A DNA stretch of 64,000 nucleotides from Paenibacillus sp. URB8-2 (lineage in GTDB: Bacteria > Bacillota > Bacilli > Paenibacillales > Paenibacillaceae): the NCBI RefSeq assembly GCF_013393385.1, contig NZ_AP023239.1, positions 620,001 through 684,000 on the forward strand. The letters run 5' to 3'. How positions within the stretch are numbered: position 1 is the stretch's first letter; every line of letters starts with the position of its first letter. The position numbers and the translations under genes are program-made. The notes beneath the pieces were generated by a model. The model worked only from the letters and a program-made list of their open reading frames with translations, made no database searches and was not told the DNA's origin. This document shows positions 496-27,617 of the stretch, in pieces.

Positions 496-538
496 CGCAA
501 GCCCTCCTTCAAGTTCCGGTTATTGGAAACCCGTGAAA

Positions 539-2041: not shown

Positions 2042-2324
2042 GAAGCGCCTCCTTCATCCGTATGAATTATTTCACCGCGTTTAAAAAATCATAACACATT
2101 ATTCCAAGTGATATAGTTAGATATAGACATATAATTAGCATAATGTAACTCAGTGGAAAGAGAAATAACATTTCGTTGTCAATAATTTAACATTTTGTTG
2201 GGTTTTGCGAGTGTACTGTAAAATCTTTAACTGATAGATTAATAGAAGCAACATCTTCCGGCACAAATTGTTGCGAAGCTATTTTTCGCCCCGTCTATAA
2301 TTGAAATTGAAAGGAGGGATTAAG

Positions 2325-2408
2325 ATGCAGTGGCTGGAGCGGATGAATCGGGGACGGGTACACCTCGGTGAGTATTCCAGCGCATACATGGGCGATTTTC
2401 CCATCTGA
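2325..2408 (+). CDS. 27-aa micro-ORF resembling the start of an AraC-type regulator
   Basis: A strong ribosome site (AAAGGAGGGATTAAG) precedes an ATG reading MQWLERMNRGRVHLG and stopping after 27 codons. The opening WLERMN is what many Bacillales AraC/MarA-like regulators start with, but the continuation is unrelated and no HTH follows. It is most likely the leftover 5' end of a lost gene. A small real peptide cannot be excluded. It lies immediately upstream of the first family-1 repeat. Confidence 0.35.
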   Translation: MQWLERMNRGRVHLGEYSSAYMGDFPI

Positions 2409-2443
2409 GCCGCATCCGTGGGATCAGAGAACAAGAGAAAACA

Positions 2444-2523
2444 GAGAGCCATCCTGTAAGGTACGGCTCTCAGCTTGCCGTTACAGACGCCGCGGAGAAC
2501 CGTATCATAAGTAACGGCAAGTT
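2444..2523 (+). repeat. Family-1 repeat copy R1 (hairpin plus 52-bp core)
   Basis: A stem GAGAGCC (2444-2450) / GGCTCTC (2465-2471) is followed directly by the 52-bp core at 2472-2523. The core begins AGCTTGCCGTTA, ends TAACGGCAAGTT (12-bp inverted ends, one mismatch) and contains GCGGAGAACCGTATCATAAG in the middle. The rest of the gap between the sulfatase promoter region and the DUF4037 gene (2042-2782) shows only the micro-ORF and AT-rich sequence. Five more copies occur in the window, all in the same orientation. Confidence 0.85.
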
Positions 2524-2782
2524 TTTTGGTGAAGCTTATTATATCGATATATTCATCAACGCGTCTGATTACAGGCGTTTTTTTATGTTCAAATGAAAAA
2601 AAGCCTAGAAAATTTTCCGGCTTCTAAAGTAAATATGGGACTCCGATATTTCACCAAGACTTCAATCTAAATGATAACAGAACCCAAAAGAATAGTCTAG
2701 TAATTTTTGTTTTAAATGTTAACATTAGGATACCGGTAAAAATAATGTGGGTGCGCACAGCTACATGGGATGGAGTTCACCA

Positions 2783-3898
2783 ATGAAGGGTTTAGACTTA
2801 AGTGAGGAGTTTTATTGGGAGATCGTAAGGCCAATAATAGCCTGTCGTTTCCCGCAACTGTTGGAAAAACATGCTGCTGGATTAATTGGTTATGGCTCAG
2901 ATGTCTTAGGTTATGATGATGATTTATCTAGAGATCATGAATGGGGAGCGAGATGCTACATTTGGTTGCTTGACTCGGACTATGATGAGTACGCTACATG
3001 CCTTAATCAAGCATTTGACGAAGAAGTTCCAATTTTATTCAAGGGATATCCCTCTCGTTTTTCCGTAGATGAACTCAATGAGGTGCTTGTACCGTATAAT
3101 GGAAAAAGCAATATACATCATATTGCAATTACTAGTGTTTCTCGGCATATGCGAATCCAATTGGGATTGCATACTTCTCAGCTCTCCATTTACGATTGGT
3201 TAGTAATTCCTGAACAAAAATTGATAGAGTGGACAAGAGGAAAGATTTTTACGGATCCTGTAGGCGAAATAACTGAAGTACGAAAGAATCTTTCTTATTT
3301 GCCCGAAGATGTGTGGCGGTATAAATTGAAATATGCATGGAGCGCATTTCGTCATCTCTATGTGGCAAGGCTCACAGATATTAGAGGAGAATCATTATCA
3401 GCTAGATTATTAATAAACAGAATGGTAGAGAAAGTAATTCAATTGGTCTTTCTCTATAACAAAAGGTATCGACCTGGTACTTACAAATGGATTTCCAAGG
3501 AACTAGCACAGATCAGTCCTTTAGCCAATGAGTTGATTGAGCATCTTGAAGGCATTTTGATGGAACCTTGTGTTACAAAAGCAGTTGAACAATTGGAGGG
3601 TGTATTAGCGATACTAGTAAGACAACATAACGACATGAAGTTGACGGAATATATCGAACTTGAACCTCCCATCTTCTACGCAAGAGGTTTACAATCCTAC
3701 TCTTATATTAATTTAGAAAATGCGTTATTTTCTTCGTTACCTAAAGAACTTCAACATCTTGAAATACCAGGGTCTTTAGACCAATTTGTTACCAGTGAAC
3801 ATATATTGGTATGGGCGGATCATTATTCAAAGTTCAAGCCAATATACAGTACAAAGTCCGACATAGAAAGAACTGGAATAGGGGATATGATTGTTTAG
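2783..3898 (+). CDS. DUF4037-type nucleotidyltransferase-like protein (371 aa)
   Basis: The motif IGYGSDVLGYDDDLSRDHEW near the N-terminus matches the G-S-x-x-x-G-x-D-D-x-x-S-x-D-H-x-W signature of DUF4037 proteins, which resemble nucleotidyltransferases of the aminoglycoside adenylyltransferase fold. The usual next residues GPR read GAR here. The C-terminal two thirds is helical. The start is placed at ATG 2783 (MKGLDLSEEF), as family members begin near there; a GTG at 2747 extends the frame by 12 codons but has no clear ribosome site. The gene is AT-rich and lies alone between repeats R1 and R2, as in a cassette. Biological role is unknown. Confidence 0.75.
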   Translation: MKGLDLSEEFYWEIVRPIIACRFPQLLEKHAAGLIGYGSDVLGYDDDLSRDHEWGARCYIWLLDSDYDEYATCLNQAFDEEVPILFKGYPSRFSVDELNEVLVPYNGKSNIHHIAITSVSRHMRIQLGLHTSQLSIYDWLVIPEQKLIEWTRGKIFTDPVGEITEVRKNLSYLPEDVWRYKLKYAWSAFRHLYVARLTDIRGESLSARLLINRMVEKVIQLVFLYNKRYRPGTYKWISKELAQISPLANELIEHLEGILMEPCVTKAVEQLEGVLAILVRQHNDMKLTEYIELEPPIFYARGLQSYSYINLENALFSSLPKELQHLEIPGSLDQFVTSEHILVWADHYSKFKPIYSTKSDIERTGIGDMIV

Positions 3899-3949
3899 TC
3901 GGCCTGTTAGTTAATTATGATTAACATTGAGCGTATAGCATTCAGATTG

Positions 3950-4034
3950 AATGGCCATTCCTGAGGGATGGCCATTTTTCAAAACTTGCCGTTAAAGACG
4001 GCGCGGTGAACCGTATCATAAATAAGGGCAAGTT
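3950..4034 (+). repeat. Family-1 repeat copy R2
   Basis: Stem AATGGCCAT (3950-3958) / ATGGCCATT (3968-3976), then core 3983-4034 starting AACTTGCCGTTA and ending TAAGGGCAAGTT followed by T-rich sequence. It sits 51 bp after the stop of the DUF4037 gene. The stem followed by TTTTTC could also act as its terminator. Confidence 0.85.
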
Positions 4035-4060
4035 TTTTTGCAGAATTCCTTGTGGCTACG

Positions 4061-4182
4061 GGCTAAGGAAACGCGAAAAAGGTACATGGGGCAATCGTTT
4101 TTTGAGTTGAACAACCTCGTCATATCCTACGGAAGGAAGCGGGCATCGAGGACCGGAGAAGGCCACGTGGGGCAGGATAGTT
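4061..4182 (+). repeat. Possible decayed family-2 repeat
   Basis: GGCTAAGGAAACGCG at 4061-4075 resembles the first half-site (GCTAACGGGAAACGATAG) and CGTGGGGCAGGATAGTTG at about 4165-4182 resembles the second (GCTAACGGGCAGGATAG). The similarity is partial and no clear variable stem lies between. The 3899-4265 gap contains nothing else recognisable besides R2. Confidence 0.3.
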
Positions 4183-4265
4183 GAAAAAGGAACTTAAATT
4201 TAAATCTCGAATATCTAATGTAATCGGATAGCTAAAAATTTGATGACAGACAGGAGTTAGATACG

Positions 4266-4613
4266 ATGATAAAAGGTTTCGGAGGAATATTTTGGAGAAC
4301 TAAGAATCTTGAAGTTATAAAAAAATGGTACAGTGAGGTGTTGAAGATTGAAATGGAAAATTGGAATGGGACTGTGATAAACCCCCAATTAGGAAATGAG
4401 ACTATCTTTTCTTTCTTTACCGAGGATGACAGTTATTTTCCAACAGAACAACAAGTGATGTTAAATTTCCAAGTACATAATCTAAACGAGACTATTCAGC
4501 ATCTTGAACATATTGGTGTACCTCTTGCAAAGAAAAAAGAGATTAGTGAATTTGGAAAGTTTATTTGGATTGAAGATCCTGAAGGTCGACTGGTCGAGCT
4601 TTGGGAGAAATAA
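4266..4613 (+). CDS. VOC (glyoxalase/bleomycin-resistance fold) protein, 115 aa
   Basis: A single VOC domain: N-terminal GGIFWRTKNLEVIKKWYSEV beta-alpha unit and a C-terminal FIWIEDPEGRLVELWE strand carrying the usual metal-site Glu position. VOC proteins of this size act as dimers and include lyases, dioxygenases and antibiotic-binding resistance proteins; no specific activity can be read. The ribosome site GACAGGAGTTAG precedes ATG 4266. It is AT-rich, with the IS110 element downstream. Confidence 0.8.
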   Translation: MIKGFGGIFWRTKNLEVIKKWYSEVLKIEMENWNGTVINPQLGNETIFSFFTEDDSYFPTEQQVMLNFQVHNLNETIQHLEHIGVPLAKKKEISEFGKFIWIEDPEGRLVELWEK

Positions 4614-4839
4614 CGAGTTGTAATTCATTGCTATTGAGCTCCCTCAGTACGATTCAGTTTTCTCACGAAAGCTCGCTTATTCGCAGGATTTCACCCTTGT
4701 CAGATTTACCGAAAGATTGTTAGAGCAACTCGGTTGAGGACCAGGACAACATGAAGGCGTGAGGAAATAGAGGGGGATGCTGAAACCCCATATCCTTCCA
4801 TATACTGCACGTTTCTCCACGCCGCCCCTGGAGGTTTTC
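4614..4839. other. Gap between VOC gene and IS110 element
   Basis: No coding sequence recognised. GCTTATTCGCAGGATTTCA (4673-4691) is an inverted copy, with one mismatch, of a 19-bp stretch inside the 3' non-coding part of the IS110 element (4973-4991), and neighbouring TTCTCAC is shared too. This may be the decayed end of a second, oppositely oriented copy. Confidence 0.4.
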
Positions 4840-4867
4840 ACTCCCATGTCTCAACGGGTCATTGCCC

Positions 4868-5023
4868 TCTCATTCCTTCGTTACGCCTTTCCAAGGGGTG
4901 GAGGCCGGTCATGCTAACGTTACGGGTCGGTGCCCTTTGGTTCAATATATCCGGTACTCCGTGCTTTCTTTTGAAATCCCGCGAATAAGCCAAAATTCGT
5001 ACGACGAAACGGTGAGAAATCGC
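4868..5023 (-). ncRNA. Candidate bridge RNA region of the IS110 element
   Basis: About 155 nt of non-coding sequence lies between the transposase stop and the subterminal repeat. In IS1111-type elements this 3' segment is where the guide-like bridge RNA is encoded. No individual loops were assigned; the call rests on position, length and family knowledge only. Confidence 0.35.
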
Positions 5024-6296
5024 TTAAGCTGCTAGCTGAAGTGGCATCGTTTTATGTGGATTGTAGGCTTCACCGCTGCGAGCCATCCCCACGAGAATGC
5101 GAGCTAGTTTACCACACAGTTTCATTAGTGACCTCATTTTCTTCATCTTTTTTACCTGAACATTGTACGCATGCATCGCCTTGAATTCCGGATTATTGGC
5201 GGTTAAGCTCAGGGTCATCATGAAGATGAAACGTCGGAGTCGAGATCGTCCGCGTTTACTAATCTTCATCTGTCCGGTCCATTTGCCCGAGCTTGCTTCC
5301 GCAAGGTTGAGACCAGCATGACGCAGCAAAGCGTTGCCATGAACAAAGCCGCTTAAATCCCCAGCCTCTCCAAGAATACCAGCTAGTGAGATTGCATTAA
5401 TCCCTTGTACAGCAAGCATCGACTTAGCAAAAGGTATACGGTCTAAAACTGCTATAATCTCTGCCTCCACGACTCGCAGTTGCTCACAAGCGAGATCATA
5501 TTCTGCGAGAAGCTGCATTAAATGGAGCTTGTACGCATGCGTTGCCTGCTTAGAGCCAACAGAATGACTAGCAAGAGCGATTAGGGCTTGAGCCTTTTTG
5601 TCCCCAGGTTGCCGTTGCATAATGGATTTCCAGCCCCTTACCACGTCTCGAGGCGTTAACTTACTCAGTTCATCAGGCGTCGGGAAAAGACGTAGTGTCG
5701 CCAATGAGCCTTTGCACATCAGATTCTTAAATACTTGTCTCAACTCGGGGAATACGACGTCAACCCAACGATGAATCTGGTTCTTTGCACTAACGAGTCT
5801 CCTTACGACGGAGTCTCGGTTGGAGAGAAAGACACGAAGCTCTTCAAAGGCTTCAGGTGTGTTGCGAATGAATGAGTAGTAGCCGTTCTTCACCATGTCT
5901 GCGATGACGAGAGCATCCTTTTTGTCGCTCTTCGATGGCGTATTGTCGCGGTTTTCCTTGTTCTTTTTCACGAGATGAGGATTAACAAAGAACAACTTCA
6001 AACTGCTTCTCAGATAGCCATTTGGAGACGCTTAACCAGTAATGCCCCGTTGGTTCCATACCGATGATTGCGAAGTCTAGGTTATGGGTTGATTGCAACG
6101 ATTGGATCCAGCGAAGAAGGATCCGAAACCCTTCTTCGTCATTTGAGAAAGATAGTGGATTGCCAACTACGATCCCGCGGAAATTTACCGCACGAGCGAC
6201 GTGAATTAGCTGTGCGATGTCGATTCCGACGACGAGATGCTGAGGGGTAATTTTTTCAATGAGTTGATTTTGTTTGTCCTGGGCTTTAAACTTCAT
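5024..6296 (-). pseudogene. IS110-family DEDD transposase, frameshifted
   Basis: The first frame (6296-5982, 104 codons) contains VGIDIAQ with the first catalytic Asp and the GMEPTGHYW Glu motif. It stops after QFEVVLC. The second frame (about 5998-5024) continues with VNPHLVKKNKENRDNTPSKSDKKDA and ends with the C-terminal serine-containing domain (LRHAGLNLAEASSGKW). The frames join at GTTGTTCTTTGTTAAT, where skipping one base restores V-V-x-V-N-P as in intact relatives. Either a one-base insertion has killed the gene or a +1 slip at CTT-T makes the full protein. About 423 aa if joined, a normal length. Confidence 0.85.
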
Positions 6297-6410
6297 AGTA
6301 GAGCGTCCTCCTGGATGATGGGATTTTAAGGGCTATGACCCGTTGCGTACTCCCATCGTACCGAGGCGCTTTTCTTTTTGCAAAGCTCGTAATTAACGCT
6401 CTACAGGAAT

Positions 6411-6426
6411 GCTAACGGGGGCGTTA
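6411..6426 (+). repeat. Family-2 second half-site, isolated
   Basis: GCTAACGGGGGCGTTA resembles the second half-site of family 2 (GCTAACGGGCAGGTTA). It lies between the IS110 end and the terminator of the next gene. Confidence 0.4.
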
Positions 6427-6447
6427 CTGAACAAGTTAAAGACAAAA

Positions 6448-6470
6448 AAGAACCGACCCTGCGGTCGGCT
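6448..6470 (-). terminator. Terminator of stalk-domain gene
   Basis: Read on the minus strand: stem CCGACC / GGTCGG (6453-6468) around GCAG, then TTCTTTTTT. It lies 15 bp after the stop of the minus-strand gene. Confidence 0.75.
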
Positions 6471-6484
6471 TTTACATAGCGTCT

Positions 6485-7033
6485 TTACTCCTGCGTCTGG
6501 CTGATAAATAAGACATCTGTCCCTTGCTCGAGCTCAACGGAAAGTTGCAGCACGTCGCTAAAAAAATCCTGTAACACGTAAAGCGAGTCGTTGATTATTA
6601 CCGGAGCGATGCCAAGCGAGATCGGCGTCCTGTCATTATATAGGTAGTAATCGGTGTCTTTCTGCACCGTTGTCCATAACGCGCCTTTTCTAACTTCTGC
6701 CGAACGGGTCGCTTGATCCCATTTCACCGTATAGCCGATTTTCTCAGCGACAGCTCTAAGCGGCAGTAACCGATACCCATGTCCGGTGACCAAGTAGGCG
6801 GGCTCGTCATCCGTTTTATCTGCTTCTTTAACGATTCTAACGCTGAAGTCTGTTTGTAACTTGATTTCCTTAGACGTTCCCGTGATGGCAGGGACGTCGG
6901 CCTCCAGGGCTATAGGATCGGCTGGAACCGATGACGCGCCTCCAGCATAAACGGTGGGAGCTACAGTGGCGGATACCGCCAGAAGGCAACTGCCGGCGAT
7001 GGTGAACGTTAAAATTTTTAAAGGTAGCTTCAT
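6485..7033 (-). CDS. Secreted protein with copper-amine-oxidase N-domain (stalk) fold, 182 aa
   Basis: Starting at ATG 7033 (AAGGAGGTCCCTGGCC upstream) the protein opens with a signal peptide, MKLPLKILTFTIAGSCLLAV, with likely cleavage near TVYA-GG. The mature part holds GYRLLPLRAVAEKIGYTVKWD followed by SAEVRKG, the typical pattern of the small alpha/beta domain named after copper amine oxidase N-termini. That domain is very common in Paenibacillus wall-associated proteins and does not imply oxidase activity. It is the only minus-strand gene in this part of the repeat-bounded region. Confidence 0.8.
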   Translation of the reverse strand: MKLPLKILTFTIAGSCLLAVSATVAPTVYAGGASSVPADPIALEADVPAITGTSKEIKLQTDFSVRIVKEADKTDDEPAYLVTGHGYRLLPLRAVAEKIGYTVKWDQATRSAEVRKGALWTTVQKDTDYYLYNDRTPISLGIAPVIINDSLYVLQDFFSDVLQLSVELEQGTDVLFISQTQE

Positions 7034-7132
7034 GGCCAGGGACCTCCTTAATTCATATAGCAACCTTACTTTTTATAACGTAACGAAACAGGATAAAGTT
7101 GCGCAACATTTCAATGAATTCTCGTCATTAAG

Positions 7133-7210
7133 GCTAACGGGAAACGATAGCACCATGACAATAGGCAGCCGAGATCATCGGCTGCCTGTTCAGCTAACGG
7201 GCAGGTTAAT
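7133..7210 (+). repeat. Family-2 repeat copy a (complete)
   Basis: First half-site GCTAACGGGAAACGATAGC (7133-7151; GCTA/TAGC ends around the loop ACGGGAAACGA). Then a perfect 10-bp stem AGGCAGCCGA (7163-7172) / TCGGCTGCCT (7178-7187), then second half-site AGCTAACGGGCAGGTTA up to about 7208. The element lies between the divergent promoter side of the stalk gene and the M29-like gene. Confidence 0.8.
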
Positions 7211-7297
7211 GTAGTAAAGAGTGGACCAACTATTTCGAATCAGCATATAACTATCTAATGTATCCATTGCTTCATAAAATGAAAGGGTGAAGTTCAA

Positions 7298-8227
7298 TTG
7301 GACGATTTATCACGAATAGCATTAAACATAATAGATAGTATTCCTATACCCCCTACACAAATGTATTTAATTCTGGTATCAGAGAACAAAGAGCAAATTG
7401 GACTCGCAATTCAATCTTTTTTGTCTTCCCAAGGATTTGAAACGCACCTTGTTCGGTTAAGTTCGAAGATGGTACAAGGGCAACCCTACCTTCAAAACCT
7501 TGTAAATCAAGTAGTTAAGAGTAATTCAGGGATCATTTCTTTACTTCAACCTGAACATGCGACTTTCTTATTCGATACTTTTGGACGCCCAGATTTAGGA
7601 TATATACAGCCGATGAAATATATATACAATGATTGGTTAATGCCCGCAGAAACCATTAGAAGAACAATGAGTGCTAATTTTACTGAATTAAAAGAATTCA
7701 AAAATCGGCTTTTAAGTCGGGTTGAGAATGCCCGCGAAATAAATATAAGTACAACAAAAGGGACAAATGTAACTTTATATCCACGGAACTGGATGCATTC
7801 AGAAGGAGAGGTTTTTTGTACACCTTTTGAAGAAAGAACATGCGGGAAGATCTTTGTTGATGGGTGTGTTTATTGGGGACCACCGAAAAGACCCTTTGCA
7901 ATATGGATTAATGAAGGACGGGTTATAAATACGAAAGAAATTGAAACAGATGATCTTCAACATCAAAATGTATTAAAGGACTTAAATAGAGATGTAAATT
8001 CGAATATAATTTCGGAATTAGGAATAGGCATTAACCCTAATGCATTATGGAATGAACACCTAATGGAATCGGAGCAAGCGAGAGGCACATGTCATTTTGG
8101 ATTTGGACACAATAAGAATTATGGTGGAACGGTCGAATCGAAATATCATTTTGATTTGGTTATTCAAAAACCAACAATCACTATCGATAACAATGTTATC
8201 TGCATGGACGGTGTGTTTTTGAACTAA
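7298..8227 (+). CDS. M29-like aminopeptidase family protein, 309 aa
   Basis: The C-terminal half matches metal-dependent M29 (PepS/AmpS-like) aminopeptidases: SEGEVFCTPFEERTCGKIF, then ARGTCHFGFGHNKNYGG and ESKYHFDLVIQ, which carry Glu, His and Asp residues where the family binds its metals. The N-terminal domain is shorter and divergent, so a non-peptidase relative is possible. The start is TTG 7298 after GAAAGGGTGAAG. The stop codon lies inside the following family-2 repeat. Strongly AT-rich, unlike the flanking metabolic genes. Confidence 0.65.
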   Translation: MDDLSRIALNIIDSIPIPPTQMYLILVSENKEQIGLAIQSFLSSQGFETHLVRLSSKMVQGQPYLQNLVNQVVKSNSGIISLLQPEHATFLFDTFGRPDLGYIQPMKYIYNDWLMPAETIRRTMSANFTELKEFKNRLLSRVENAREINISTTKGTNVTLYPRNWMHSEGEVFCTPFEERTCGKIFVDGCVYWGPPKRPFAIWINEGRVINTKEIETDDLQHQNVLKDLNRDVNSNIISELGIGINPNALWNEHLMESEQARGTCHFGFGHNKNYGGTVESKYHFDLVIQKPTITIDNNVICMDGVFLN

Positions 8228-8313
8228 CGGGAAACGGGAGTTCCGTAAACACCAGGACGAGGCTGCCTGCATAGAACGGCAGCCTCGTTGAGCTAACTGG
8301 CAGGATAGCTCAA
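8221..8313 (+). repeat. Family-2 repeat copy b (complete)
   Basis: First half-site GAACTAACGGGAAACGGGAGTTC (inverted ends GAACT/AGTTC), a 10-bp stem CGAGGCTGCC / GGCAGCCTCG (8258-8287), and second half-site GAGCTAACTGGCAGGATAGCTC (inverted ends GAGCTA/TAGCTC). The end-pairs differ from copy a while the loop sequences are kept, which is covariation supporting real small hairpins. Confidence 0.85.
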
Positions 8314-8442
8314 TAATTTCGCGAATAAGAAACTGTCTAAACAACTGCTCTAAAAAAACAAGAACTCTTGTTCTCATTAATGCTTTGGGATAGAATGAAT
8401 GAAAGTATATTATCAAATTACAAACCTGAGGAGGGTATATAT

Positions 8443-8898
8443 ATGCATCTAGGTTCAATTTATTTGATAGTAAGGGATTTTAATAAGTCAATTAGATTTT
8501 ATGAGAAATTATTAGAAATGTCAGTAAGTTCTCAAAATATGCAGCGATTTGCTCAGTTTGAGTTTGATGGGAAGAATATATCTATTATGAATGGTTATTT
8601 TGATGCTATGAATCCAAATTTGACTGTTAGAAAAGGGGAATATGTAGAGGAGTTTGATAATTTAGTTGCAATAGTTGAAGCTGAGAATACACATAAGTTT
8701 GTACTAAACTTCTGGACTGAAAATTTGGAACAAGAGAGAGACAGAATAGAACAGTTGGATATTAGCGGGGAATTGACCAGCATCAAATATGTTAATAATG
8801 TTAGTCCATATTATTACTTTCAACTAACAGACCCAGATGATAATGTTATCGAAATCACTGGTCTATATTCACCCCAAAGAGGAGAATTTAATGAATAA
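8443..8898 (+). CDS. VOC (glyoxalase fold) protein, 151 aa
   Basis: The start at ATG 8443 (MHLGSIYLIVRDFNKSI) has GAGGAGGGTATAT upstream; an in-frame ATG 25 codons earlier lacks a site. The domain ends YFQLTDPDDNVIEITGLYSP, with the conserved DPDGNxxE-like strand. It is the first gene of a two-gene unit: the AlkD-like gene overlaps its last eight bases. Substrate unknown. Confidence 0.8.
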   Translation: MHLGSIYLIVRDFNKSIRFYEKLLEMSVSSQNMQRFAQFEFDGKNISIMNGYFDAMNPNLTVRKGEYVEEFDNLVAIVEAENTHKFVLNFWTENLEQERDRIEQLDISGELTSIKYVNNVSPYYYFQLTDPDDNVIEITGLYSPQRGEFNE

Positions 8899-9565
8899 TA
8901 TATTCGAATTTATTGATAACAAAGTTGAATTCTTAAATGAGAACAATCCAATAGGGGCTCATATCAAAACGGGTGATATACGAAAATTGTCAGGCAAGGT
9001 ATTCAGAATGCTTCCTGATCAAAAGATAGAGCATATTATTCCATTATGTGAACGTTTACTGGAAGAACGTCGCTGGGAAAAGGGAGTTATTGCTTTTGAT
9101 TGGGCGAATAGGGTGCATAAGCAATATACTAAGAATACATACTCTGTTTTTTATTTGTGGTTAAAAAAATATGTACGTGGCTGGGGAGATTGTGATGATT
9201 TTTGTACCCATGCATTTGGAAATTTGCTTTTACAATATAAAGAACTGTTTACCAATGTATTAGAATGGACAGAAGATGAAGATTTTTGGGTTCGAAGAGC
9301 ATCTGCTGTTATTCTTATTCCATCTATAATGCGAAATGATTTTAAAAGATTAAAGCCATTTTACATTGCAGATAGGTTAATGAATGATAAACATGAATTA
9401 GTTCTTAAAGGATACGGTTGGATGCTCAAGTCTTTTTCTCAAGTAAATAAAGAAGAGGTCATTGACTATCTCATTAATAATCACAAAAATATGCCAAGAG
9501 TTTCTTTTAGATATGCGATAGAAAAAATGGATAAAGAAAGTCGTTCGTTTCTTATGAGTTTATAA
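8891..9565 (+). CDS. DNA-alkylation-repair (AlkD-like, HEAT-repeat) protein, 224 aa
   Basis: Alpha-helical protein with EERRWEKGVIAFDWANR and VRGWGDCDDFCTHAFGNLL, then EWTEDEDFWVRRASAVILI, a pattern typical of the HEAT-like repeats of AlkC/AlkD-type glycosylases, which excise alkylated purines. The start is ATG 8891 (ribosome site AAAGAGGAGAATTTA), not the in-frame ATG 18 codons upstream inside the VOC gene. Overlap with the VOC gene implies translational coupling. Family level is likely; enzymatic activity is inferred. Confidence 0.75.
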   Translation: MNNIFEFIDNKVEFLNENNPIGAHIKTGDIRKLSGKVFRMLPDQKIEHIIPLCERLLEERRWEKGVIAFDWANRVHKQYTKNTYSVFYLWLKKYVRGWGDCDDFCTHAFGNLLLQYKELFTNVLEWTEDEDFWVRRASAVILIPSIMRNDFKRLKPFYIADRLMNDKHELVLKGYGWMLKSFSQVNKEEVIDYLINNHKNMPRVSFRYAIEKMDKESRSFLMSL

Positions 9566-9614
9566 AATCATTTTTATTAAAGGCTATTATAATCGATATT
9601 CAAATGATTCATTA

Positions 9615-9640
9615 CACTAACGGGAAACGATAGCGCTTCG
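9615..9640 (+). repeat. Family-2 first half-site, isolated (copy c)
   Basis: CACTAACGGGAAACGATAGC carries the ACGGGAAACGA loop. No stem or second half-site follows. The next 100 bp (to TAA at 9748) read in one open frame (IELAQQIWQTHGEFHRYGSL and so on) without a start codon, perhaps a gene remnant. Confidence 0.55.
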
Positions 9641-9778
9641 ATAGAACTCGCCCAACAAATTTGGCAGACGCATGGGGAATTTCATCGTTATGGCTCCCTT
9701 TATAAAGTATACTCATGCTGGCAATGGACAACGCTTAAGGTTGAATAAATATTTTCTTACGCGGGAGGTCATCGCTTC

Positions 9779-10012
9779 TTGAAATTTGAACTTGGACGTT
9801 GCTTGCTGAATGAACGATTGATGGAATCCGGAAAGTCAGCGGAATGGCTGGCAAAAGACTTGCTTTTTAAACCCGAACGAGTTTACGACTTTATTGAAAA
9901 CAAAAGAGTGATGCCACTCAAAATTGCCATATCGATCGCCGATTCCATCGGTTGTGATGTTCGTGCCTTGTATGAATTAATTCCGAACGAATATGAAGTA
10001 AAGGGAGATTAA
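9779..10012 (+). CDS. Small Cro/CI-type HTH protein, 77 aa
   Basis: TTG start at 9779 with GCGGGAGGTC nine bases upstream. The whole protein is one helix-turn-helix domain (AEWLAKDLLFKPERVYDFIENKR, then PLKIAISIADSIGCDVRALYEL), as in XRE-type regulators. It lies just upstream of the recombinase pseudogene and might regulate it, but no operator was identified. Confidence 0.75.
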   Translation: MKFELGRCLLNERLMESGKSAEWLAKDLLFKPERVYDFIENKRVMPLKIAISIADSIGCDVRALYELIPNEYEVKGD

Positions 10013-10057
10013 CGGAGTATGTGGTATGTGGCATTAATGCTACAAATGTGATCCATT

Positions 10058-10080
10058 AAGCTTACGGGAAACGCTAGTTC
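10058..10080 (+). repeat. Family-2 first half-site upstream of recombinase (copy d)
   Basis: AAGCTTACGGGAAACGCTAG, one change in the loop region relative to copy a. The matching stem and second half-site appear only after the recombinase gene (10932-10985), as if the gene were carried inside the element. Confidence 0.6.
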
Positions 10081-10097
10081 AAAACAGCAGGCAGATT

Positions 10098-10150
10098 AAA
10101 ACCTCTCCTTAGAAGCAAACTAGATTTAAAAGCTTCTAAAGGGAGGTTTT
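10098..10150 (+). promoter_or_regulatory. Long hairpin covering the recombinase ribosome site
   Basis: AAAACCTCTCCTTAGAAGC (10098-10116) pairs with GCTTCTAAAGGGAGGTTTT (10132-10150) with two mismatches around a 15-nt loop. The right arm contains the only ribosome site (GGGAGG) of the gene starting at ATG 10154. Folding of the mRNA would block translation. Confidence 0.7.
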
Positions 10151-10153
10151 GTT

Positions 10154-10922
10154 ATGAACTTAAGTGAGTTGTGGAGTTTGTATGAAGCTGACAAACGCAT
10201 TCAAGGATTCAGTCCGAAAACATTAAAAGCATACGCCCTTCAGAACAAAATGTTGATGTTGGAGCTAGGCAATCTCGATATCACAGAGGTAACGTTAACC
10301 ATGCTGAAGGAGTACTTGGCAAAACAAGCAGATCGTTTGAAGCCAAGCAGCCTTGGTCATCGAATTCGGTTTGTTCGTTCTCTTTTCCGCTACGCTTATG
10401 AAGAGGCGTATCTGACTTCAAATCCTTCACTAAAATTGAGAGAACCGAAATTAGATAAGCGCATTCCTAAGTTTTTGATTGAGGAAGACGTCATACACTT
10501 GAAGATCTCTTGTCAGTCACTCAGGGAAAGAGCGCTGCTTGAGTTTCTCTACAGCACCGGCTGCCGGGTTGGGGAGGTGGAGAAGATCAACATCCAGGAT
10601 CTTAACTGGGAGAACTGCTCAGCAATCGTTAATGGCAAGGGATCGAAGCAAAGAGAAGTTTACTTCACGACAGAGTGAAACAAAACGAATGGCTATACCT
10701 ACGATTAGATGGGCATTAAAACGGCTTGCAGATCGGGGAGAAATTGAAGCGAATGTATTCCCGCATCGCTTTCGACATACTTATGCATGCCAACTCCTTG
10801 ATAACGGTGCCCCATTGGATTTCATCCAAGGAATGCTCGGTCATGAGAAAGCATCGACCACTCAAATCTACGCACAGCTCCGCGGCGAACGTCGGAGAGA
10901 ACTTTATCGACGATTCTTTTAG
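10154..10922 (+). pseudogene. Tyrosine recombinase/integrase, frameshifted with internal deletion
   Basis: The first frame (10154-10678) has the N-terminal SAM-like core-binding domain and the catalytic Arg in STGCRVGEVEK (R138), then the beta-hairpin Lys in NGKGSKQRE. The second frame (about 10680-10922) resumes with RWALKRLADRGEIEANVFPH, then HRFRHTYACQLL (HxxR), LGHEKASTTQIYAQL (His and nucleophile Tyr). Compared with XerC/D-like relatives of about 270-300 aa, roughly 25 codons between the Lys hairpin and this segment are missing and the frame shifts there. All catalytic residues survive, so decay is recent. It lies between family-2 half-sites. Confidence 0.85.
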
Positions 10923-10931
10923 TTTGTATTG

Positions 10932-10985
10932 GCGGCGGATCCCCCTTTAGAATCCGTCGCTGTTCAACTAAAGGGCAGTTTTGCA
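10932..10985 (+). repeat. Family-2 stem plus second half-site (copy e)
   Basis: Stem GCGGCGGAT / ATCCGTCGC (10932-10960, one mismatch) then CAACTAAAGGGCAGTTTTG, equivalent to the second half-site with inverted ends CAACT/AGTTTTG. It starts ten bases after the recombinase stop. Confidence 0.6.
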
Positions 10986-11063
10986 TAAATACTAATTTTT
11001 CATTAATATATAAATATACCAATTTAGGGTCATTTCTACCAAAACTCCGGAAGGAGAGTTCGA

Positions 11064-13202
11064 ATGATGAAAAGTCGATGGATAATGGGAGTTGTGCTAT
11101 CTTCGTGTCAGCTGCTAGCCTCCTGCGACGACAACAAAGCACCGGCAGAGACGCAGAACATAGCAGGGGCGCTGAATACATCTGAGCCAAAGGTGGCAAT
11201 GGACTCGCCTTCGAACGAGGCTTTGATCACCTACGAAGTAACCCGGAATTATGCAATGGAGAAGGCAGATCTCCTCACGAAAACTTACGACACGAACAGC
11301 GTGCAATACGCCCTTATCGATCATGGACACATCGTCGTATCCGGCCAATCCGGCAAGAATGATGAGCAGGGACAGAGGCCGCTCACGAAAGACACGATGT
11401 ATGGGATCGGCTCGACGAGTAAAATGTTTACCACGGTTGCCGTTATGCAGTTGGTCGATCAAGGGAAAATCGATCTCGATACGCCGGTCGTCCAGTATAT
11501 CCCTGAGTTTACGATGACGGATGAACGCTACAAACAGATTACGCCGCGCATGCTGCTCAATCATTCGTCCGGACTGAAGGGATCCTCGCCTACGAACGCC
11601 GGTTTATTCGAAGATAACGATACTTATGCCCACGACACACTGCTGAAGCAACTGTCCGGTCAGACCTTGAAAGCGGACCCGGGGGCTTATTCGGTTTACT
11701 GCAATGACGGATTTACGCTGGCCGAGATTCTGGTCGAGCAGGTCAGCGGTATGGACTTTACCTCTTATATCCATCGATATATTACGAAACCTCTGGGTAT
11801 GGTCAATACGAAGACGCCACTCGATTCTCCGGACACAGCGAAGATGGCGAGACTCTATTATCCTACATATACAGGACAACTCCCCAACGAGACGCTCAAC
11901 GTGATCGGAACAGGAGGCATTTATTCCACGGCGGAAGATTTGGCTCGATTCTCGCAAGTTTTCACGGGGGAAGCGGAAGAAATCTTGTCCGGTAAATCGG
12001 CTGCGGCCATGGCGCAAGACGAGTACAAGACGCCTTTGTGGCCTGACGATGCGGACAATTCAATCGAATACGGTCTCGGCTGGGACAGCGTCAATCTGTA
12101 TCCCTTCAGGGAATACGGGATGAAGGCGCTGACCAAAGGCGGGGACACCCCTCTCTATCACGCGTCGCTCGTTGTGCTTCCCGAACAGGACATGGCGGCA
12201 GCTGTTGTCACTTCCGGCGGGAGCAGCACGTACGATCAGCTTCTGGCGAACGAAATCCTGCTTCAGGCGCTGAAGGAGAAAGGCACAATTACTGAATTTA
12301 AGCCTGAGAAGTCATACGGCGCTCCGGTAAAGAATGATATGCCGGAGTCCATGCTGCAGTATTCGGGAATCTATGGCGCGACCGGTTCAACGACAAATAT
12401 AGATATTACCGAAAGTGGCGTCATGACCATCACTTCGGAGCAATCGCCCGATAATCCAGCCGAGATCTACGAGTATTCGGCAGACGGGACGTTCCGGAGT
12501 GCGGATGGGAATGGGATGATCAGCTTCGTCACGGAGGAGAACGGCCGCACCTACGAATGGCTTCGTCGATACGCTTCGGTCCCGGGTCTTGGGCAGGTGG
12601 CTATATCAATGTACAGCGCCGAGAAGCTCCAGCCCCAATATCTTCCGGCAGAGACCAAGGAAGCATGGATTCAGCGCGACGGGAAGAAGTATTATCTGCT
12701 GACTGAGAAGTATACGTCGATTTCTTATTTGACAAAGGTAACCACCAACTTGAATGTGTCGAAACAACTGCCGGGGTACGTGTTGGATAAGCGAATAACC
12801 GGCCCGAATACGGCCGTCTCCGAATTGCAAATTCCGGGATCGAACGGGCGGGATCTCTCAGGTCTTACGTTCTTTACACAAGACGGGGTTGAGTACTTGA
12901 ATTATGGTGGAATCATCTTAGTGAACGAGGACGCCGTGAAGCCTTTTAACTTCGCTAAGAAGTCAATCGTTACGATTCCGCCCAGCGGATACGCCAGGTG
13001 GTATACGATAAGCGACAAAGACGGGGGCAAGATCGTTAAGGTGAGCATGTCCTCGAAAGCCTCCTTCGCCGTTTATGATGCAAAGGGAACATGCATCTAC
13101 TTCAGTGTCATTGGAGGCAAGGATCCGGTCGTACTGCCCTTGGGAGGATACATAGTTTTCGCCGGAGATGCCGGGACGAAGTTCGAGATTTCCGCTCAGT
13201 AA
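11064..13202 (+). CDS. Serine hydrolase lipoprotein, class C beta-lactamase/D-peptidase family, 712 aa
   Basis: The N-terminus MMKSRWIMGVVLSSCQLLASC has a lipobox ending at Cys, indicating a surface lipoprotein. The beta-lactamase-like domain (about 60-400) holds S-x-x-K as STSK (S117, K120) and the Y-x-N motif as YCN (Y212, N214). The C-terminal 300 residues are an extra beta-rich part common in Paenibacillus serine hydrolases. Such proteins act as D-aminopeptidases, esterases or wall-modifying enzymes more often than as antibiotic lactamases. ATG 11064 follows GGAAGGAGAG. It is flanked by a family-2 half-site and repeat R3. Confidence 0.85.
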   Translation: MMKSRWIMGVVLSSCQLLASCDDNKAPAETQNIAGALNTSEPKVAMDSPSNEALITYEVTRNYAMEKADLLTKTYDTNSVQYALIDHGHIVVSGQSGKNDEQGQRPLTKDTMYGIGSTSKMFTTVAVMQLVDQGKIDLDTPVVQYIPEFTMTDERYKQITPRMLLNHSSGLKGSSPTNAGLFEDNDTYAHDTLLKQLSGQTLKADPGAYSVYCNDGFTLAEILVEQVSGMDFTSYIHRYITKPLGMVNTKTPLDSPDTAKMARLYYPTYTGQLPNETLNVIGTGGIYSTAEDLARFSQVFTGEAEEILSGKSAAAMAQDEYKTPLWPDDADNSIEYGLGWDSVNLYPFREYGMKALTKGGDTPLYHASLVVLPEQDMAAAVVTSGGSSTYDQLLANEILLQALKEKGTITEFKPEKSYGAPVKNDMPESMLQYSGIYGATGSTTNIDITESGVMTITSEQSPDNPAEIYEYSADGTFRSADGNGMISFVTEENGRTYEWLRRYASVPGLGQVAISMYSAEKLQPQYLPAETKEAWIQRDGKKYYLLTEKYTSISYLTKVTTNLNVSKQLPGYVLDKRITGPNTAVSELQIPGSNGRDLSGLTFFTQDGVEYLNYGGIILVNEDAVKPFNFAKKSIVTIPPSGYARWYTISDKDGGKIVKVSMSSKASFAVYDAKGTCIYFSVIGGKDPVVLPLGGYIVFAGDAGTKFEISAQ

Positions 13203-13361
13203 CTTCGCAATAAGCATTTCATAACTGGCCAAGATATAGTCCTGCGTATAAGAAAGAAGATTCCTCAAGAAAAGTTGGATGAACTAAAAATATCCATAAA
13301 AAGTGCCTTGATTCATTCCAATAGGTGAACATTCAACGGAGAACGTTCAACAAACAAATAA

Positions 13362-13440
13362 AGGCCATCCCGAAAAGGGATGGCCTAAAACTTGCCGTTA
13401 CAGACAGCGCGGTGAACCGTACCGTAAGTAACTGCAAGTT
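13362..13440 (+). repeat. Family-1 repeat copy R3
   Basis: Stem AGGCCATCCC (13362-13371) / GGGATGGCCT (13377-13386), then core 13389-13440 with ends AACTTGCCGTTA / TAACTGCAAGTT. The remaining 13203-13361 and 13441-13562 hold no other recognisable feature. Confidence 0.87.
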
Positions 13441-13562
13441 ATGTGTAAAGTTAATTAAAGATATTCCTTGCCTATAACCTAGACATTTCCAGTGCTATTA
13501 TTTTCATATCAGATGCACAGCTGATGTTATTCTAATTTTAAAATGGAAAAGGAGATCAAAAG

Positions 13563-14267
13563 ATGGGTAAGGACAATATCATTAAAGCGATGCTTTCTGA
13601 AAGGGTAAGTATGACACCCGATGGTTTTTTTGCAGATCAATTAAGCCCAGAACAATTTGCAGATAGCTACGAATTGTTTTTTGACAAGATTTTTGAAATC
13701 GGTTCATCAGATATAGCGGGAGTAGAAGGCTATGGTGAGTTTAATGATGATTGTAAAACAGAATATGGGACCTGCAGGGAATTTCTGATCGATACATTTG
13801 CAGAAGATAAAGAGGGGTACTGGTTTAATTGGAAGGAAATGTTCGAAACAACGGTTTTAGAACGTGAATTCTTCGAGAAATCCTTCAAGGAAATGGAGGG
13901 CAGAATTCGTTATTGTGAAGGAAATCGTTATTTGGTTTACAATAATACGTTTTTCGTCAATATGATCACAGATGGAAAGACAATGGTCGGGTTCCCTGAC
14001 TGGAGCAGATCCGGCATTTGCGATTTCCTTTTGGATTTTGCCATTATGGACTTAAATAAGCCTTACTTGAAGATACCGGAACTGTTGGTTGAGTATTGCA
14101 AGAAAAGGGATATCGTCCTACCGGATTTTAAAGAAAGATTCTTATGTATGGCTTATTATAAAGGGATCGATACCTTGCGTTGGCATGCATCGATTGAAGA
14201 CACGGAATCCTGCATGTCCATCATGAAATCCATCAGTGAACTGAAAGATCGACTATACGCCTTATAG
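13563..14267 (+). CDS. APH-like protein lacking the kinase N-lobe and catalytic Asp, 234 aa
   Basis: The sequence corresponds to the C-lobe of aminoglycoside/hygromycin phosphotransferases: a helical part with VEGYGEFND, then RYLVYNNTFFVNMITDGKTM and GFPDWSRSGICDFLLDFA. The canonical catalytic loop HGDxxxxN reads Y126-N127-N128-T-F-F-V-N, so the His and the catalytic Asp are replaced; the magnesium-binding Asp (D146) is kept. The start has a good ribosome site (AAAAGGAGATCAAAAG), so the missing N-lobe is not an annotation error. It is probably a non-phosphorylating relative. It is followed 11 bp later by the CD3324-like gene. Confidence 0.7.
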   Translation: MGKDNIIKAMLSERVSMTPDGFFADQLSPEQFADSYELFFDKIFEIGSSDIAGVEGYGEFNDDCKTEYGTCREFLIDTFAEDKEGYWFNWKEMFETTVLEREFFEKSFKEMEGRIRYCEGNRYLVYNNTFFVNMITDGKTMVGFPDWSRSGICDFLLDFAIMDLNKPYLKIPELLVEYCKKRDIVLPDFKERFLCMAYYKGIDTLRWHASIEDTESCMSIMKSISELKDRLYAL

Positions 14268-14278
14268 ATGGTGATGGT

Positions 14279-14977
14279 ATGAAATATGAAAATGCCGGCG
14301 ATGTGATACCAGAGGAGCTATTGAAAGAAATCCAGAAATACGCGGCAGGAAAACTTCTTTATATTCCTATTGGGGAGGAAAAAAAGGCTTGGGGCGAGAC
14401 GTCCGGTTACCGAAATCAACTGCAGAGGCGAAACCTCATGATTCGCAATAAGTATGCCCATGGGGTTACGGTTTCGGAACTTGCCGACGAATACTTTTTA
14501 TCCTTGGATTCCGTTAAGAAAATCATCTATTCTAAGAAAATCGAAAGACATTTAACATATGCTCCGACTTTGGAGTCAGCCGTACAATATGCGAATGTCG
14601 GGATGATCGAAGAATGGATTCAATGCTATCTGCTGCTTACCCGAAAAGTCTCTCCCATTCTACATGATTTCATGAAGGAAGATCATCTATATTTCGGAGT
14701 CGTTAAGTTTCCACTGCGTCTTATTCAGCGTGATGGATTAGAAACCGGGGAAAACCATGTAGATGAAGATGATGACCATGCAGTCGTTCTACCCCCGCTT
14801 CTTGTTCAGTATGAAGAAGGAAAATTTCATTGCATCGTACAAAAGGATTCATTGGCTGTATTAAAACATCGCAAAATAAATGCTTATCCGACCATAATCG
14901 TTATGAAAGGAAATGACGATTATAAAAGGTTTATGAAATACTATGGAACCATATTCTTTTATGTTGATAAAGTGTGA
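14279..14977 (+). CDS. CD3324-family (Mor-like HTH) protein with C-terminal extension, 232 aa
   Basis: Residues 1-90 match the CD3324 family: MKYENAGDVIPEELLKEIQK, LYIPIGEEKKAWGETSGYR, RNKYAHGVTVSELADEYFLS and SVKKIIYSKK, a Mor-type helix-turn-helix. Residues 95-232, which end in LAVLKHRKINAYPTIIVMKG and IFFYVDKV, were not recognised. Typical CD3324 proteins stop after the HTH, so this is an extended form. It probably binds DNA. It shares a unit with the APH-like gene and is closed by repeat R4. Confidence 0.7.
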   Translation: MKYENAGDVIPEELLKEIQKYAAGKLLYIPIGEEKKAWGETSGYRNQLQRRNLMIRNKYAHGVTVSELADEYFLSLDSVKKIIYSKKIERHLTYAPTLESAVQYANVGMIEEWIQCYLLLTRKVSPILHDFMKEDHLYFGVVKFPLRLIQRDGLETGENHVDEDDDHAVVLPPLLVQYEEGKFHCIVQKDSLAVLKHRKINAYPTIIVMKGNDDYKRFMKYYGTIFFYVDKV

Positions 14978-14984
14978 TTTTAAT

Positions 14985-15063
14985 GGGCCATCCATTGCAG
15001 GATGGCCCAAAAGCTTGCCGTTACAGACAGCGCGGAGAATCATATCACAAGTGATGGTACACA
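14985..15063 (+). repeat. Family-1 repeat copy R4 (3' arm decayed)
   Basis: Stem GGGCCATCC (14985-14993) / GGATGGCCC (15000-15008), then the core from AGCTTGCCGTTA at 15012. The 3' arm reads GTGATGGTACAC, diverged from TAACGGCAAGTT. It starts eight bases after the stop of the CD3324-like gene. Confidence 0.8.
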
Positions 15064-15066
15064 CAA

Positions 15067-15966
15067 TCAGAAAAGAAATTGGATTTCACTTCTAAATTTC
15101 CGGAAATCTTTAGGTGTACTTTCATGATATTTTTTAAAAGACTGAATGAAGTGATTTACATGATTGAAACCCACTCTGTGGGCTATTTCGGTTATTGTAT
15201 AATCTGTTGAGATTAATAACTCGCTGCTTTTCTTGATACGGTACTTAATTAAGTAGTCGTAAGGTGTCATATGAATGGTTCTCTTAAAACTACGAGTGCA
15301 TTCCGAAACACTTAGATGCGCTATATCAGCAATCTCTTGCAGCGTTATATTATTTGAGTAGTTCTGATGGATGAAGCTGAGCATTAATTGAAGTCTTTCT
15401 TGTTGCAGCTTTAAGTATTTAGGTGCTTCCTCAGAAGAGAGTGAAATGTTAGAAATTAAGGTAAACCATAATTGTACAGTTTTGATAGAAACCTCATATT
15501 CCCACCCCCAGTTTTTTTTCATATCAAATTTCTTTTTCATATCCCAAAGCGTTTCCAGTACTTGACTTTCCCATTCAACATCTCCCTTGATTACTAGTGA
15601 CACTAAGGAAGAGTTTGTATAAGGCAGTACATAATTTTTTTCCATGGCACTATCCGCATAAAAAGCCAGCAGCTTCTCAGGAAAATTAAAACTAACATAT
15701 TGACCGTTATGTGTCAGGTTCGTAGTAACATGAAGGACGCCCTTATTAATTAAAATGGCCTGACCTGTTTCTAATTCATGATCAATCCCATTAACTTGTA
15801 TAACTAGTTTTCCTTTAGTAACCAAAGTGATTTGTAGTTCTTCATGCCAATGTAAATCGTTAAATCCTCTACCTTCAGGAATACTTCCATGAATAGTATG
15901 GGTGTACATGATGTATGGAAATGAAACATCGGGATATAAAATGGTCTCGTGCAATTGTTTTTCCAT
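15067..15966 (-). CDS. AraC-family transcription regulator, 299 aa
   Basis: An N-terminal cupin sensor domain (LHWHEELQITLVTKGKLVIQ, GVLHVTTNL) is followed by two HTH motifs at the C-terminus (ITLQEIADIAHLSVSECTRS and TITEIAHRVGFNHVNHFIQS). The start is placed at ATG 15966 (MEKQLHETIL), preceded by GAAAGGACTTCG; 41 more codons upstream are open but lack a site. Divergent from the EamA transporter with about 157 bp between, so it is the likely regulator of that gene. Confidence 0.88.
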   Translation of the reverse strand: MEKQLHETILYPDVSFPYIMYTHTIHGSIPEGRGFNDLHWHEELQITLVTKGKLVIQVNGIDHELETGQAILINKGVLHVTTNLTHNGQYVSFNFPEKLLAFYADSAMEKNYVLPYTNSSLVSLVIKGDVEWESQVLETLWDMKKKFDMKKNWGWEYEVSIKTVQLWFTLISNISLSSEEAPKYLKLQQERLQLMLSFIHQNYSNNITLQEIADIAHLSVSECTRSFKRTIHMTPYDYLIKYRIKKSSELLISTDYTITEIAHRVGFNHVNHFIQSFKKYHESTPKDFRKFRSEIQFLF

Positions 15967-16123
15967 TTTAGCGAAGTCCTTTCTTATGACGATATTTCTA
16001 TATAAATTAAAGATATAGTTACACAAATAAAATAAAAGTGGTGATATTATTATATCAAATATTCGGCTTATCATTACAATCCTGTGCACAGACGATTGGA
16101 TAAGACCTCTTGGAGGCGTACAT

Positions 16124-17038: not shown

Positions 17039-17056
17039 GTGCTTTGTAACTTTTAA

Positions 17057-17215
17057 AATTTAGGGCAACAAGTAATAGGGGTAGTCAATTTTCCTCCGCG
17101 TCGTATAGTCGGGTTCATTTCAGAGGTATTAGTTCTTGGAGGAATACCCGAAAAGGGGGATGTAGTTCTATTAAAACCTGATTTTAAACTGCCTGATGGA
17201 ACTCCGATTGGGTGA
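17057..17215 (+). pseudogene. csaA: Remnant of csaA (tRNA-binding domain chaperone), C-terminus only
   Basis: An open stretch with no start reads VIGVVNFPPRRIVGF, SEVLVLGGIPEKGDVVLLKP and DGTPIG before TGA. This closely follows the last 50 residues of CsaA/EMAP-type tRNA-binding proteins (about 110 aa). A stop codon precedes it directly, so the first half is gone. It is followed by a terminator that probably belonged to the intact gene. Confidence 0.75.
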
Positions 17216-17227
17216 TAGATAGTTAGA

Positions 17228-17267: not shown

Positions 17268-17300
17268 GCATGCAGAAAAATCTAAGGAGATGAACAGACA

Positions 17301-27605: not shown

Positions 27606-27617
27606 TCAACGCCCCCC

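Follow-up and report, generated by a model that had tools for sequence, protein, structure and literature searches.

A gene-cassette region of Paenibacillus with two families of sites: a candidate Xer-like recombinase system beside SCC/ECC-type repeats

Between 2.4 and 15.1 kb of a 64,000-nucleotide stretch of Paenibacillus sp. URB8-2 (contig NZ_AP023239.1, positions 620,001 to 684,000, forward strand; hereafter the window, whose numbering is used throughout) small accessory genes are separated by two families of structured repeats, raising the question of whether these genes were collected as cassettes and, if so, by what kind of system. An initial annotation, made from the sequence of the window, had described such a cassette-like array and proposed an unrelated cassette-collecting system of Paenibacillus behind it. 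The array is real, and comparison with other genomes (cited below by our handles, G for genomes and L for loci) confirmed the region as a cassette region; a system of the proposed kind does exist, but the two repeat families, which the annotation had treated together, belong to two different systems, the tyrosine recombinase within the array going with family 2. With a probability of roughly 0.85, family 2 represents a system of mobile gene cassettes that has an Xer-like tyrosine recombinase of its own, and family 1 a second system, of the SCC/ECC type (serine recombinase Ccr).

The family-2 core is a near-palindrome of ~28 bp (CTAAC-spacer-WTAG; fuller consensus TTAARCTAAC-6/7-nt spacer-WTAGYTNAA) that stands mostly in one orientation between modules. 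Two kinds of site can be distinguished, a left site (LH) that follows a gene and a right site (RH) that precedes one, and the interval from LH to RH holds either a terminator-like hairpin of ~72 bp or the gene for an Xer-like tyrosine recombinase. The strict two-part pattern was found in 57 of 295 family genomes, as against none for a reversed control pattern, and in 9 of the 19 Paenibacillaceae genera sampled. Position weight matrices were derived from 75 distinct full strict sites; because the core is near-palindromic, retraining drifted to the opposite strand, so the final matrices were built with a strand rule. At 14 bits they give 485 LH and 672 RH sites over the loci collected, overlapping ones included, against 1 and 4 in reversed sequence, and the LH pattern had no match in viral contigs. 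In P. castaneae DSM 19417 (G198), open reading frames (ORFs) and sites succeed each other along a 72-kb array, one strand carrying 94 sites and the opposite strand 1 (80 kb, 14 bits). Judged by such comparisons, the family-2 cassette system is widespread in Paenibacillaceae and appears to have a recombinase of its own. In the window the annotation had placed family-2 copies or half-sites around several genes, and this is borne out by the matrices, which place seven half-sites between 7135 and 10979, i.e. LH at 7135, 8225, 9618 and 10062 and RH at 7205, 8304 and 10979, forming two full copies (7135-7204 and 8225-8303), two lone left half-sites (9618 and 10062) and a lone right one (10979). At a threshold of 10 bits two weaker matches occur elsewhere in the 64-kb window (27906, 10.7 bits; 34086, 17.1 bits), and the reversed window has none.

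That the genes between these sites move is indicated by site pairs that share a module on one side and are flanked by unrelated modules on the other, mapped over 1,086 distinct sites. Amongst LH pairs, 187 share the right module and 24 the left, whilst amongst RH pairs 27 share the right and 141 the left. The border of homology falls at CTAAC|GG in LH (between +3 and +6) and at GGGCAG|NWTAG in RH; LH and RH thus point the same way by spacer and are mirrored by crossover point. These borders lie ~6 nt apart in the core and would therefore fit staggered cleavage by a tyrosine recombinase. A border at CTAACGG|GCAG, inside the gene module, had been considered and was replaced by the above on the larger junction set.

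Individual modules illustrate the same point. The module of L168, a 255-aa ORF with a nucleotidyltransferase domain (23.9 bits), recurs in L140 (98.7% identity), L191 (97.8%), L186 (99.4%) and L075 (97.2%), in species whose rpoB genes are 76.9-87.6% identical (six pairs compared among the five). Across species its junctions are exact and its neighbours differ: on the left there are four different hairpins and, in L186, an apparent recombinase end, and on the right hairpins, recombinase leaders or another leader. An APH-fold module of L117 is 96.8% identical in L125 and 94.5% identical in L141, at rpoB identities of 76-77%. Among 20 homologous gene-module pairs, which share loci and are not independent, the left hairpin differs in all 7 cases where both were found (similarity 0.59-0.69; random mean 0.62) and the right hairpin is the same in 1 of 3 scored; read by eye, 12 of these pairs, whose genes share 91-99% identity, have differing right-hand units in 11 cases and the same one in L063/L064. 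On these comparisons it is well supported that gene modules move with exact ends, the spacer and the hairpin usually staying behind. The annotation had allowed that repeats found mainly beside conserved core genes, with no variation in gene content between them, would be ordinary dispersed repeats; what is found instead is different genes between the sites, near-identical genes at differing positions, and junctions at the repeats.

There were 269 distinct RH-to-LH gene modules with a median length of 751 bp and 186 distinct hairpin modules with a median of 72 bp. ORF content and site order were counted after loci present twice had been dropped (L130 and L178 for both; L083 and L086 for site order also). 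Of 218 modules of 250-2500 bp, 182 have their largest ORF on the strand of the sites; of 238, 168 contain a single ORF of 80 aa or more (or just one that is smaller) and 20 contain none; the stop codon precedes LH by a median of 45 bp. Cargo in the 110 ORFs sampled out of 274 includes GNAT, Cass2, sigma-70, glyoxalase, APH, GyrI-like, NUDIX, TetR, cupin and DinB proteins; few cargo ORFs match defence models. Terminator-like structure is seen in 73% of the 186 hairpin modules, in 62% on the opposite strand and in 7% of shuffled sequences. Successive sites run RH>LH 267 times, LH>RH 271, RH>RH 223 and LH>LH 56, and a stable fold stands just upstream of 81% of the 181 RH sites that have an LH (shuffled 50%) and of 45% of the 357 that have no upstream LH (shuffled 35%), the latter class being enlarged by missed degenerate LH sites. 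From site order and folds together, gene-gene junctions with a single core therefore appear frequent, and the alternation of module types is not strict.

A few sites depart from this general picture or add to it. A spacer subtype GGGTACG (or GGATACG) characterises L140, L145, L146 and L187, where in several places a lone core lies between genes with no evident hairpin. An LH-RH slot in L062 (13961-15166) is filled by a 401-aa ORF on the opposite strand, homologous stretches of L131 and L147 ending at the same RH; this is possibly another element using the slot. On 14 hand-picked chromosome-size contigs (at least G145, G040 and G182 being left out, and the record start being taken as oriC), 38 of 45 strict sites point with presumed replication, the exceptions being in G077 (0/3), G230 (0/1), G105 (1/3) and G053 (3/4).

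The recombinase is tied to the sites at the level of the locus. A scan of named genomes yielded 166 stretches, 133 relatives and 80 kept loci, mostly from Paenibacillus, with Brevibacillus, Cohnella, Bacillus sp. and a Bacilli metagenome-assembled genome in addition. Family-2 sites are present at 79 of the 80, with 601 on the recombinase strand and 45 on the other, the latter possibly including palindromic echoes since the original matrix was scored per strand; the recombinase strand holds the majority in all 63 loci with at least 4 sites, and every site in 34. The co-occurrence of recombinase homologues with the repeats that the annotation had asked about is thus found, and the copies are largely intact, with a full frame in 48 of 59 and the catalytic pattern R-K-HxxR-GH-Y in 47 of 59 (59 loci entered the frame check and 63 the flanking-site count, the remainder of the 80 being mostly partial matches). 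By manual count over 64 entries (the 63 loci and the window), the recombinase start has a core 78-98 nt before it in 44, and in 35 the end of the match is followed by an RH at 34-108 nt, some matches stopping at residue 267, before the stop codon. With a core upstream and an RH downstream, the recombinase therefore occupies the slot otherwise filled by a hairpin, the layout of its module being LH, a leader that buries the Shine-Dalgarno sequence, recombinase, hairpin and RH. Between whole genomes the co-occurrence of site and recombinase is real but loose: of 295 genomes, 20 have both, 37 the strict site only, 29 the recombinase only and 209 neither (odds ratio 3.9, p 1e-4). The count omits four genomes (G262, G219, G230 and G193) whose recombinase is at 35-39% identity.

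The closest solved structure is XerD (1a0p, E 3.5e-29), and several genomes hold the recombinase in multiple copies. The nearest plasmid relative, from Peribacillus, is 51.8% identical, all of the at least 5000 plasmid matches listed being below 60%, as were all 632 matches in phages. On Peribacillus simplex plasmid pSHB26 (L228) two tyrosine recombinases lie 1.3 kb apart. The second shares 52% identity with the cassette recombinase and has a 20.2-bit site ~40 nt past its stop codon (scored as LH type, by eye more RH-like) and a weak site of 9.5 bits ~93 nt before its start.

All 29 leaders examined, drawn from loci whose core site stands near -90, fold into a long stem-loop that pairs the Shine-Dalgarno sequence and carries a conserved sequence at its apex (median z -4.4 relative to mononucleotide shuffles). 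An alignment-wide fold recovered 5 pairs only, two of them with compensatory changes, few because, as we read it, MAFFT misplaced gaps. Rfam gave nothing above gathering thresholds in L124:9800-10100 or in window positions 1-20000. Stems that block translation from read-through transcripts are known for some insertion sequences, and the leader may act on the recombinase in the same way.

In the mechanism that we favour, the recombinase would cut the double-stranded core beside the gene-side arm, and gene modules would be excised as circles and inserted at any core, often directly upstream of the recombinase's own gene; the hairpins would insulate each gene transcriptionally. The mobility of the modules is well supported by comparison, whilst the action of the recombinase, the circles and the strand chemistry are what we infer from it. 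It is likely, if less firmly held than the identity of the two systems, that Bacillota evolved an integron analogue independently, in which an RNA-gated, Xer-derived recombinase would shuffle genes and terminator hairpins as separate modules at double-stranded cores, by exchange at the gene-side arm and beside an SCC-type system.

Several observations weigh against this. Classical tyrosine recombinases tolerate differing spacers poorly, and the LH and RH spacers differ. At the cut-off used, 37 of the 57 strict-site genomes have no recombinase, so many arrays may be fossils or served by another enzyme, and in 29 of the 49 genomes with the recombinase the strict site pattern is absent. Some of the loci that were later counted had also supplied seed sites for the matrices, the reversed control being independent of that seeding; the junction pairs are not independent, recombinase modules probably making up much of the LH same-right set. 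The border of a shared module has decayed on one side in L186 (right) and in L141 (left). A search for occupied and empty sites gave 6 weak candidates, none convincing, and no clean pair, along with 8 replacement candidates, some of them one place counted twice. Finally, the two window hairpins have no T-run, and a dedicated terminator scanner called none there.

Much of the arrangement is what a classical chromosomal integron, with an IntI integrase acting on attC sites folded as single strands, would present after drifting in sequence: long arrays of mostly single-ORF mobile genes, mostly in one orientation, one type of recombinase, often with a core site just upstream of it, and cargo such as GNAT, Cass2, glyoxalase, APH and NUDIX proteins. 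The LH and RH consensus sequences even pair on paper, leaving an unpaired central part, and the profile nearest its cut-off is the archaeal XerA model, named 'site-specific tyrosine recombinase/integron integrase' (180-191 against 220 bits). The enzyme nevertheless reaches only 86-97 bits with the integron-integrase model TIGR02249 (cut-off 265), as against 182-193 with the XerC/XerD models (cut-offs near 330); in L083, residues 183 and 204 meet TIGR02249 positions 177 and 237, leaving 20 residues where the model has 59, and no such gap arises with the XerC/XerD models. Integron integrases are described as holding an insertion that is essential to function (PMC8138268). The arms of LH and RH show no covariation (inner z -1.5 and outer z -0.7 over 215 hairpin modules; z -0.5 over 284 gene modules), so attC-like folding between LH and RH, suggested by the consensus, is unsupported overall (single positions z -3.9 to 3.1). 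The attC boxes are RYYYAAC and GTTRRRY, and the family-2 cores, of double-stranded type, have neither these nor complementary arms; an attC site stays with its gene, whereas the hairpin here is usually not carried along but exchanged separately, and the recombinase is codirectional with the array. On the tests of profile, insertion, covariation and hairpin, the system therefore works like an integron without being one, as the annotation had suspected from the sites and the enzyme's context, and, as both its enzyme and its sites differ from those of integrons, it appears to be a distinct means of collecting genes; a drifted integron is very improbable.

The shared slot and similar ends of recombinase and hairpin modules, together with the recurrence of the same hairpins within one genome, could alternatively be explained if the hairpin units were derivatives, like miniature inverted-repeat transposable elements, of an LH-recombinase-RH transposon scattered among ordinary, immobile genes. 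We regard this as improbable: gene modules themselves have been transferred with exact ends, at 97-99% identity where rpoB is 77-88% identical, into different neighbourhoods, and single cores without an evident hairpin appear to be common between genes. Very improbable, too, is that the host's XerC/XerD carry out the exchange and that the resident recombinase plays no part in it. Here the ~28-bp two-arm cores, the 6/7-nt spacer and the alternating module types between sites resemble the XerC/XerD dif (pdif) modules of Acinetobacter (PMC13141974), and XerC/XerD, with XerA, are the best full-length profile matches. Family 2 differs from pdif modules in that the array includes a dedicated recombinase, dozens of modules can stand in one chromosomal array, the sites share an orientation by spacer, and the alternate unit is a hairpin module. 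The recombinase, moreover, is a clade of its own at the sites (79/80 loci), lies far below the XerC/XerD family cut-offs, is multi-copy in several genomes and is tied to cassette arrays.

Of the two systems, family 2 is the novel one: no description of such arrays was found among the open-access, non-preprint papers listed by the searches, as judged by titles and abstract openings. Integrons are rare in Bacillota; for Firmicutes, IntegronFinder 2.0 reports one complete integron and a few integrase-less clusters (PMC9024848). A separate, widespread system would show that the collecting of cassettes has more than one origin, here with a simpler enzyme and a simpler site, and would give a second case against which to ask why integrons rely on folded single strands. 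It would also expose an untapped pool of cassette genes (acetyltransferases, phosphotransferases and regulators) and, if the proposed mechanism is right, an insulated gene library that builds up on the chromosome beside an SCC-type cassette system in the same hotspot. The cassette system is directly testable in laboratory strains.

Within the window all family-2 features lie on the + strand. LH1 (7125-7156; core CTAACGGGAAACGATAG; 25.3 bits) is followed by hairpin module 1, comprising spacer, hairpin and RH left arm (7139-7204, its borders taken from junction mapping in other genomes; minimum free energy (MFE) -28.6 for 7135-7204), and RH1 (7184-7216; CTAACGGGCAG|GTTAATG; 36.3 bits). The gene module that follows (7205-8228) holds a 309-aa ORF (7298-8227), called M29-like in the annotation, with no Pfam, NCBIfam or PADLOC match. 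LH2 (8215-8246; 26.7 bits), hairpin module 2 (8229-8303; MFE -32.4 for 8225-8303) and RH2 (8283-8315; 39.3 bits) separate it from a module (8304-9621) with a glyoxalase-like gene (8443-8898; PF00903, 25.7 bits) and an AlkD-like gene (8891-9565; PF08713, 141.8 bits). LH3 (9608-9639; 32.7 bits) has no RH partner, and the module beyond it (9622-10065) contains a small ORF (9779-10012, 77 aa), the annotation's HTH protein, without any Pfam or NCBIfam match. LH4 (10052-10083; 36.9 bits) lies 92 nt upstream of the recombinase start, an attI-like position, and is succeeded by the leader stem-loop burying the Shine-Dalgarno sequence (10096-10150). The recombinase gene (10154-10922) was correctly annotated as broken: relative to L133 it lacks ~74 nt internally and is split into two frames, both pieces matching Phage_integrase, leaving the window's array with no functional recombinase of the cassette type today. 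RH3 (10958-10990; 30.8 bits), 56 nt past the recombinase stop, opens the serine hydrolase module (10979-13202; ORF 11064-13202; PF00144, 211.8 bits), for which a right family-2 border was not found.

The other gene labels of the annotation fared unevenly. Pfam and NCBIfam profiles support DUF4037, the beta-lactamase-fold serine hydrolase, the AlkD-like protein, CD3324 and the recombinase, and the stalk protein matches Cu_amine_oxidN1; the APH label is weak (25 bits). One of the two VOC labels stands, that of 8443-8898, which exceeds one glyoxalase cut-off (20.6 bits), whilst 4266-4613 exceeds none of them. Close relatives add little at this place: G311 has no such region, and G309 and G212 have pieces only.

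Family 1 is represented between 2.4 and 15.1 kb by four copies, R1 (2474-2521, a full dyad), R2 (3985-4032), R3 (13391-13438) and R4 (15014-15055, right arm degraded), which, as annotated, all lie on the + strand, R2 to R4 starting 87, 189 and 37 bp past the preceding stop codon. R1 and R2 bracket the DUF4037 gene (2747-3898), and R3 and R4 the APH-like and CD3324 genes. Genome-wide there are 9 copies at no more than 3 mismatches, against 0 for the reversed pattern. The repeat consists of sequence matching the rlmH 3' end together with a dyad that contains TATCATAA; its right half (GAACCGTATCATAAGTAA..) follows a frame with the RlmH C-terminus in the six copies examined (four long RlmH-like, two with the last residues only), and in several genomes the rlmH coding end (..GEPYHK-stop) runs into it. 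Two full ORFs pass the RlmH cut-off, one of them from this genome. Right-half sites at no more than 2 mismatches occur in 34 of 46 genus genomes (control 0), often clustered and in direct orientation. SCC/ECC elements insert at rlmH, and their att sites are described as direct repeats of ~50 bp that contain TATCATAA and a dyad (PMC6222049); Paenibacillus pinistramenti is reported to have composite islands with several rlmH-end repeats (PMC10061031).

With its rlmH-end match and TATCATAA dyad, and with a CcrB-like recombinase encoded at another place in this genome, family 1 most plausibly consists of SCC/ECC-type att sites outside rlmH that bound small cassettes, probably used by a Ccr-like serine recombinase in the same hotspot as family 2. 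It shares with SCC, ECC and composite SCC-like islands the rlmH 3'-end sequence, the dyad, and direct, tandem repeats. It differs in that the window copies are not at rlmH (own rlmH near 5.528 Mb, copies at 622-650 kb, ~0.68 Mb apart if the contig is circular), bound cassettes of one or two genes, and have no large serine recombinase gene beside them in a PF07508 scan of the genome. The two such genes lie at 190 kb and 1.71 Mb, the former being CcrB-like at 165.8 bits (cut-off 900). That distance, and the terminator-like hairpins preceding many copies, would suit ordinary dispersed terminator-like repeats; given that the right half is the rlmH coding end in several genomes, that the dyad is as in the ECC/SCC sites and that the clusters run in direct orientation, we consider this unlikely for family 1. 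In G309 only the right half of a family-1 site stands at the start of the APH-CD3324 unit, and neither end of the DUF4037 unit shows such a site.

A further unit of the window (27571-29617), with half of a family-1 site at one border and a complete one at the other, contains a ParA-like gene (27645-28664) and a SIR2-like gene (28661-29530) that matches the ThsA and Dsr1 defence models (78.5 and 64.5 bits), and is possibly a small SCC-type defence cassette. The array is also interrupted by an IS110-family transposase, absent from the initial annotation, at 5024-6296 on the - strand (PF02371 and PF01548 on 5027-6001 of the frame 5024-6001; the frame 5982-6296 is presumably the other piece). IS110 relatives that target integron attC sites are known, and 2 of the 110 sampled cargo ORFs, i.e. 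inside such arrays, are likewise IS110-family transposases. In four other loci (L123:531, L155:148, L157:7666 and L163:9402) family-1-like sites abut family-2 cores, and the two systems therefore appear to share hotspots beyond the window.

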